Positions 647 through 853 of a stretch of 64,000 bases of DNA are shown here, piece after piece; position 1 is the stretch's first letter; every line of letters starts with the position of its first letter. The position numbers and the translations under genes were made by a program. Origin of the DNA: Xanthomonas hydrangeae (GTDB taxonomy: Bacteria; Pseudomonadota; Gammaproteobacteria; Xanthomonadales; Xanthomonadaceae); contig LR990730.1 in NCBI GenBank assembly GCA_905142475.1, forward strand, positions 868,001-932,000, written 5' to 3'. The notes beneath the pieces are model-generated. The model made no database searches, was not told where the DNA came from, and saw only the letters and a list, made by a program, of their open reading frames with translations.

Positions 647-853
647 TATCTGTTCGGATTCTGGCAGTTTGGGCGTCGAGAGCCGGCGTGGGCCACCGTG
701 AGAGCCTGGATCGTTACCGATCGTCGTGTAGCTGGGTGCCCACGCCGGTTTCTCCCCTGTATCGCCCGAACGGTTGCCAGAGTGGCCACTCGTAGACGTA
801 AGGCTGGGCAGGCAGGGGAGCTCTCGACCCTTCAAGCCTAACGGAGTTTGCCC
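647..853 (+). ncRNA. Candidate IS110 bridge RNA
   Basis: The region from the left end of the element to the transposase start folds into two stem-enclosed internal loops. Loop 1 is closed by 683-697 paired with about 733-748. It contains AGAGCCT (701-707), a small GATCG-TTAC-CGATC hairpin (709-722) and CGTGTAG (725-731). AGAGCCT equals the left side of the insertion target and CGTGTAG is the complement of the right side (CTACACG), as expected of left and right target guides. Loop 2 is closed by CTCCCCTG (about 753-760) with CAGGGGAG (about 814-821) and contains GGTTGCC (772-778), which partly matches the right end of the element (GTTGCT). The architecture follows IS621-type bridge RNAs; expression is inferred. 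Confidence 0.75.

Follow-up and report, generated by a model that had tools for sequence, protein, structure and literature searches.

Guide-target covariation points to a bridge RNA at the left end of an IS110 element in Xanthomonas hydrangeae, antisense to the small RNA family sX15

How does an IS110 insertion sequence (IS) of Xanthomonas hydrangeae come to sit, copy after copy, at one point of a hairpin repeat, and what does the non-coding left end of the element encode? The element lies in a stretch of 64,000 nucleotides (contig LR990730.1, positions 868,001 to 932,000 of the forward strand), called the window here and used for all coordinates. The bridge RNA mechanism of such elements has been known since 2024, and an earlier note on this DNA had claimed that the left end carries a bridge RNA-like structure whose guides match the observed insertion site. 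We consider it very probable that an IS110 bridge RNA is read from the left end on the transposase strand and guides the recombinase to a repeat headed by GTAG. The evidence that carries this conclusion is that, across relatives, the guides change with the insertion site. The following features define the element and its site.

647-1879, + strand: IS110 element copy 1, 1233 bp, with a CT core at each border
46777-48009, - strand: IS110 element copy 2 (L009 in our numbering of loci), nearly identical to copy 1 and bordered by CT
645-646, + strand: CT core of the left junction (target side), with left flank GAGCCT in ten of ten own-genome copies
647-669, + strand: left-end tip, with a -10-like CAGTTT at 665-670
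854-1777, + strand: open reading frame of the IS110 recombinase, from ATG 854 (alternative TTG start at 848)
1778-1879, + strand: right end, terminating in ACACAGTTGCT, with the CT core at 1878-1879
56966-56981, - strand: empty target site AGAGCCTACACGGACG, inside the hairpin repeat headed GTAG

The protein places the element in the IS110 family. It has the Pfam domains DEDD_Tnp_IS110 (the DEDD RuvC-like domain) and Transposase_20 with its catalytic serine, and a profile of the window protein and five relatives matches the solved recombinases of IS621 (8wt6, E = 2.8e-49) and ISCro4 (9t56, E = 2.8e-48). Numbered from the start at 848, D9, E52, D94, D97, and S229 align with D11, E60, D102, D105, and S241 of IS621 (the deposited chain is numbered two higher, an offset counted by hand), and these positions are invariant across all six aligned recombinases. 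The roles of the IS621 residues are described in PMC11208158. Of the two non-coding ends of the element, the one before the transposase is the longer (647-853, 207 bp, versus 102 bp at 1778-1879).

The insertion site is specific, its dinucleotide core is constant, and no target sequence is lost on insertion. The uninterrupted target described in the earlier note, AAGAGCCTACACGGACG, is present on the minus strand of 56930-57029, and both copies in the window are inserted at its CT, as proposed. Ten copies were found in the genome, nine of them near-identical and one with 68% DNA identity and a 59%-identical transposase (an 11th match of 45 bp was excluded from the count); all ten lie at GAGC-CT-ACA[C/T]GG, with right flank CT-ACA[C/T]GGACG. 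Sites within one mismatch of AGAGCCTACAYGGACG number 173 in the genome, both strands summed, while the reversed control pattern has zero genome sites. When the flanks of copy 1 are joined, uninterrupted copies of the repeat, which holds the GTAG-headed hairpin, align across the junction. These flanks (541-646 joined with 1880-1980) belong to a long interspersed repeat; each of the 35 genomes of the genus that were searched has between 2 and 98 matches to them, several over the full query and through the junction. Repetitive extragenic palindromes (REPs) headed by GTAG form the class that PMC2817692 describes for REP-associated tyrosine transposases.

Within the left end, folding and alignment of relatives predict an outer stem that encloses two arms, each bearing a pair of guides.

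670-828, + strand: predicted bridge RNA, guide strand (from folding, alignment, a covariance model, and guide-target covariation)
675-682, + strand: 5' side of the outer stem, pairing with 821-828 and enclosing both arms
683-749, + strand: target-binding arm, from the predicted fold and the relatives' alignment
701-707, + strand: left target guide AGAGCCT, matching the left half of the target including CT
709-722, + strand: small hairpin (GATC/GATC) between the target guides
725-731, + strand: right target guide CGTGTAG, complement of CTACACG
752-821, + strand: donor-binding arm, from the predicted fold and the relatives' alignment
769-777, + strand: left donor guide AACGGTTGC, to be compared with right end CACAGTTGC
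796-802, + strand: right donor guide ACGTAAG, to be compared with CT plus left end TATC
47828-47986, - strand: predicted bridge RNA of copy 2

Both target guides stand exactly where the earlier note had put them, flanking the hairpin within one stem-closed arm, and each occurs once within 670-828. The order of stem, left guide, hairpin, and right guide is that of the IS621 target loop (PMC11208158), which bears out the layout claimed. The extent of the RNA needs narrowing: it lies within the proposed interval 647-853 and spans about 670-828. The second loop, which had been given a partial match to the right end, is likewise refined, with the donor guide at 769-777 and a further guide, ACGTAAG, that had not been listed. 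The transposase-strand fold of 670-832 has an energy of -84.2 kcal/mol (z = -3.63), and RNAalifold predicts 34 pairs from 17 relatives, 11 of which show changes on both sides in some sequence. R1, a covariance model built from these relatives, places the RNA directly 5' of the transposase, in the same orientation, in relatives from Stenotrophomonas, Luteimonas, Dyella, Pseudoxanthomonas, Solimonas, and several distant metagenome-assembled genomes. Of the 6342 CT sites tested in the window, both strands counted, the two 7-nucleotide guides together fit a single one, the empty hairpin.

The test set in advance was covariation of guides and targets across relatives. We kept 80 of 348 relatives and added 30 further loci; 93 of these 110 were searched with R1, near-duplicate copies and some fragments being omitted. 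The search gave 99 matches, 43 of them at 43 bits or more, and 39 were used (L147 was cut, L186 and L154 were partial, and L165 lay near a contig start). In these 39 elements the columns of the model located the guides, and the ends of the element located the flanks. A usable right flank was available for 34 elements plus the window (35 rows, 22 distinct guides) and a left one for 30 plus the window (31 rows, 16 distinct guides). L121 was dropped from the latter for its duplicated left end; it and L016, one place in two collections, show a duplication of about 16 bp of the left end at the junction. For L142 the first rather than the last right-end motif was chosen by hand, and guides that ran one base beyond AG were moved back by one base, also by hand. 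Other Xanthomonas loci were read by eye and entered the shuffle test only through copies among the kept relatives.

The 22 distinct right guides pair with their own flanks at 113 of 154 positions, contiguously from the core, and the same guides shuffled among flanks reach a mean of 22.6 and a maximum of 66 in 100,000 shuffles. For the 16 distinct left guides the score is 72 of 112 (the better of two offsets, taken alike for own and shuffled pairs) against a shuffled mean of 44.0, and none of 100,000 shuffles scored as high. Distinct guides are not fully independent lineages, and related targets also raise the shuffled scores. The guides thus change with the site, which supports the interpretation in the earlier note.

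Individual changes are readable at several scales. The window's CGTGTAG/CTACACG becomes CGTGGAG/CTCCACG in Xanthomonas hortorum pv. cynarae (85% protein identity), a single compensatory change. Stenotrophomonas maltophilia SJTL3 has guide CCCTGTAG with flank CTACAGGG, and the Luteimonas-type pair GTAATTCAG/CTGAATTA becomes GTAACTCAG/CTGAGTTA in Dyella. Whole retargeting is also seen: one group is inserted in AACCC-CT-CTCCCG repeats, and another, from Luteimonas and its kin, at or near TAACGC-CT-GAATTAAGCC. We also note nine loci (L134, L135, L137, L138, L141, L143, L144, L146, and L149, from Luteimonas, Dyella, Pseudoxanthomonas, and others) with guides for TAACGCCT/GAATTA, most of them at such sites. 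The sites of the Luteimonas group and of these loci resemble integron attC sites. In Stenotrophomonas, the sites of L125, L128, and L129 are identical to REP S_sp1 in the table of PMC2817692; L126 and L127 lie in near versions of it, and the L131 site is close to Smal1.

The donor guides fit the two element ends once these are joined, and they are mostly invariant. In the window the left donor guide equals the right end except at its first base and for a G.T wobble at the third, and ACGTAAG pairs with CTTA (core plus left end), the next T pairing as a wobble. Among relatives the left donor guide is nearly invariant as AACAGTTG, matching right end CACAGTTGCT, and GATAAG, as right donor guide, pairs with CT plus TATC. 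Some joint changes occur, in L196, where CGGTTGC stands in the left donor guide and the right end alike, and in L151, L166, L188, and L140, where a left end with CTTG instead of CTTA goes with a guide of CAAG instead of TAAG; L145 shows the same CTTG/CAAG pair when its RNA is read by eye. The left ends of L140, L142, and L136 were also read by eye.

Several observations weigh against this account. The earlier note had named changed sites with unchanged loops as the refuting case; the general trend is the opposite, and partial exceptions exist. L122 and L112 each have one right-guide mismatch, the flank of L069 is CTCCACG although its guide is the window's CGTGTAG, and the right flanks of L134 and L144 stop matching the guide a few bases in. 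L039, in a genome rich in transposase fragments, combines REP-type guides with the left flank of the other repeat. Left guides of the CCCCT/CTCCCG group usually have AT or AC where the CT core would stand (L027 of this group has AACCCCT exactly), and in Stenotrophomonas L125-L129 the right guide matches only about three bases past the core. On the donor side, the left donor guide varies in its last base (C, A, G, or T, often A or G), where the right end has C in all but a few elements, and the Luteimonas-type left end CTTATG goes with an unchanged GATAAG, which pairs over five bases only. Finally, the catalogued RNA of the locus, sX15, is on the strand opposite to the proposed guide.

670-828, - strand: match to Rfam RF02234, sX15, 147.3 bits, end to end (model positions 1-159)
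47828-47986, + strand: sX15 match of copy 2, 141.3 bits
835-840, - strand: -10-like TAGGCT, upstream of the 5' end of sX15

Both matches exceed the gathering score of 55. The strand and expression of sX15 rest on the Rfam model and on PMC3771888.

Because sX15 covers the region in antisense, the structure might be read as a leader that hides the ribosome site of the transposase and is switched by sX15, as proposed for the RNA Asr9 of ISPpu9, with the guide matches incidental. In ISPpu9 an antisense small RNA over the 5' leader has measured effects on translation and transposition (PMC8450116). A leader alone, however, fails to account for loops that track the insertion site in 22 distinct guides, or for the changes shared with the donor ends, and guide-target covariation leads us to reject it as a sole function. 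We regard it as very unlikely in that form, although a leader function could hold in addition to a bridge RNA.

Less probable again is that sX15 itself is the guide, as a mirror-image bridge RNA on the antisense strand. It is the RNA that has been catalogued for the region, Watson-Crick pairing of the loops is equal on both strands, and folding energy does not decide (-84.2 with z = -3.63 on the transposase strand, -80.0 with z = -4.72 on the antisense strand). The mismatches do carry strand information. Read on the transposase strand, those between guides and targets comprise 14 G.U, 2 A.C, and 14 others, which favors that strand as the guide strand, and the helices hold 57 G.U cells versus 17 A.C. 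The helix signal is weak without one pair, since this pair supplies 33 of the 57 G.U cells and leaves 24 versus 17 when removed; 12 of the 17 A.C cells also fall at one pair. Furthermore, a 5' guide on the left half of the target pairs with the bottom strand, as in IS621 (PMC11208160), only on the transposase strand. The putative junction promoter points the same way. When the ends are joined in a circle, TTGCT of the right end is followed by the T at 647, where the left end begins, to give a -35-like TTGCTT (TTACTT in L124), and a -10-like [T/C]AnnnT follows at 17-bp spacing in 21 of 23 distinct ends, the exceptions being L151 (at 18) and L188. Right ends were found by a motif containing GTT[G/A]CT, and therefore only the -10 at fixed spacing is independent evidence. 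On the G.U versus A.C counts of mismatches and helices, the antisense strand was rejected as the guide.

That the 7-nucleotide matches are chance or captured relics of the repeat is the least probable reading of all: the words are short, and among 200,000 first-order Markov sequences 98 contain the two matches together, which makes the window alone moderate evidence against chance, but one match is direct and the other reverse-complement, and the covariation of 22 right and 16 left guides in the shuffle test excludes chance.

If the transposase strand carries the guide, what is sX15? It is presumably one of the 24 small RNAs found in Xanthomonas strain 85-10, and its original description is reportedly that of Schmidtke et al. 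(2012) in Nucleic Acids Research. Differential RNA sequencing of that strain and its 24 small RNAs are reported in PMC3771888. The strand of sX15 is antisense both to the predicted bridge RNA and to the transposase. Under stricter filters for many genomes, it was found in 21 of 61 genomes, that is, in 21 of 35 of the genus (X. hydrangeae included) and in 0 of 26 outside it. Among 76 places above the cut-off that were examined, 64 have a transposase match within 250 bp, and all 64 are antisense to it; the 12 without a match by this rule include contig ends, remnants, and two that overlap a piece of transposase. The sX15 family thus appears to be a component of the IS rather than an independent small RNA. 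Shortly upstream of its start, TAnnnT occurs in 23 of 33 distinct sequences within a 16-base search stretch, in which the chance rate is estimated at about one in six, and 9 of the 10 sequences without it are from distant lineages. The motif abuts the ribosome site of the transposase, and its conservation may therefore have another cause. Our literature search found a single mention of sX15, in one row of a table that lists RNA predictions for a Herbaspirillum strain, and an earlier publication of the link to the IS is possible.

Some loci preserve parts of such elements. L029 and L030 share orthologous left-end remnants at about 1478-1660 in the coordinates of these loci (reversed in L030), 98.3% identical over 3170 bp, in which the guide RNA region is kept and the transposase was not seen; no transposase match was found in either genome, and they are probably fossils. 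One Xanthomonas genome, G007 (L042-L052), has 38 transposase matches, mostly partial, and holds many fragments of such elements.

From these sequences we infer transcription of the bridge RNA, its binding by the recombinase, recombination, and any role of sX15, as follows. The bridge RNA would span about 670-828 of the transposase strand and be made mainly from the excised circle, in which TTGCT of the right end plus T, and CAGTTT of the left end 17 bp further on, would serve as promoter. In its first arm the left guide would pair with the bottom strand of the target and the right guide with its top strand, so that the two overlap in the CT core; the second arm would pair in an equivalent way with the joined ends of the circle. 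The recombinase would then insert the circle, at CT^AC, into GTAG-headed hairpin repeats, which are dispersed over Xanthomonas genomes. sX15 would probably pair with the bridge RNA and with the 5' leader of the transposase. A more speculative proposal, which we consider less likely than not, is that sX15 is an anti-bridge RNA: integrated copies would make the antisense strand, from a conserved promoter of its own, it would pair over its full length with bridge RNA made only from excised circles, and resident copies would so tune or silence the guide of mobile ones, Asr9 and Ssr9 of ISPpu9 forming the same two-strand circuit. If so, antisense control would be a general layer over IS110 elements.

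Beyond this locus, one IS110 clade provides a natural and readable retargeting series, in which the guides change to match several types of REP as well as attC-like sites, and rules such as the length of the right guide, the tolerance of G.U, and an optional core match in the left guide can therefore be tested directly on it. The results also tie an Rfam small RNA family to bridge RNAs and suggest that antisense control of a guide RNA, hinted at by ISPpu9, may be commoner. The word "antisense" is absent from the main texts of PMC11208160 and PMC11187229.

The element resembles IS621 (PMC11208160 and PMC11208158) in its upstream non-coding end, two guide-bearing loops with a hairpin between guides, CT core, DEDD and serine recombinase, and REP target. 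A junction promoter is reported for IS621 (PMC11208160), and a matching one is predicted here. In contrast to IS621, a predicted outer stem closes both arms, the guides address a GTAG-headed Xanthomonas hairpin repeat, and a catalogued antisense small RNA lies over the locus. ISPpu9 (PMC8450116) is likewise inserted in REPs and has a stable antisense small RNA, Asr9, over the transposase leader, of which sX15 may be the counterpart; the function of Asr9, reported to raise transposase translation, has been measured, whereas sX15 is known here from sequence. The sense RNA Ssr9 of ISPpu9 lies behind a joined B-AG-A box, which could be the right-end/left-end junction that drives it, and Ssr9 could then be a copy of the bridge RNA. 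No second sense RNA downstream was seen here, where no search for one was made. The seekRNAs of ISEc21/ISMch6 and IS1111 (PMC11187229) are also short RNAs of a non-coding region that match both target strands, and natural redirection is known for these systems and attC targeting for IS1111; unlike here, the non-coding region of IS1111 is downstream and its guide order is reversed. Rfam RF02234 occupies the same DNA interval end to end on the opposite strand and is named as a Xanthomonadaceae small RNA, not as part of an IS. The mechanism is thus a known one of which the Xanthomonas RNA is, by its sequence, a new example; what was not expected is that an already catalogued small RNA family occupies its antisense strand.
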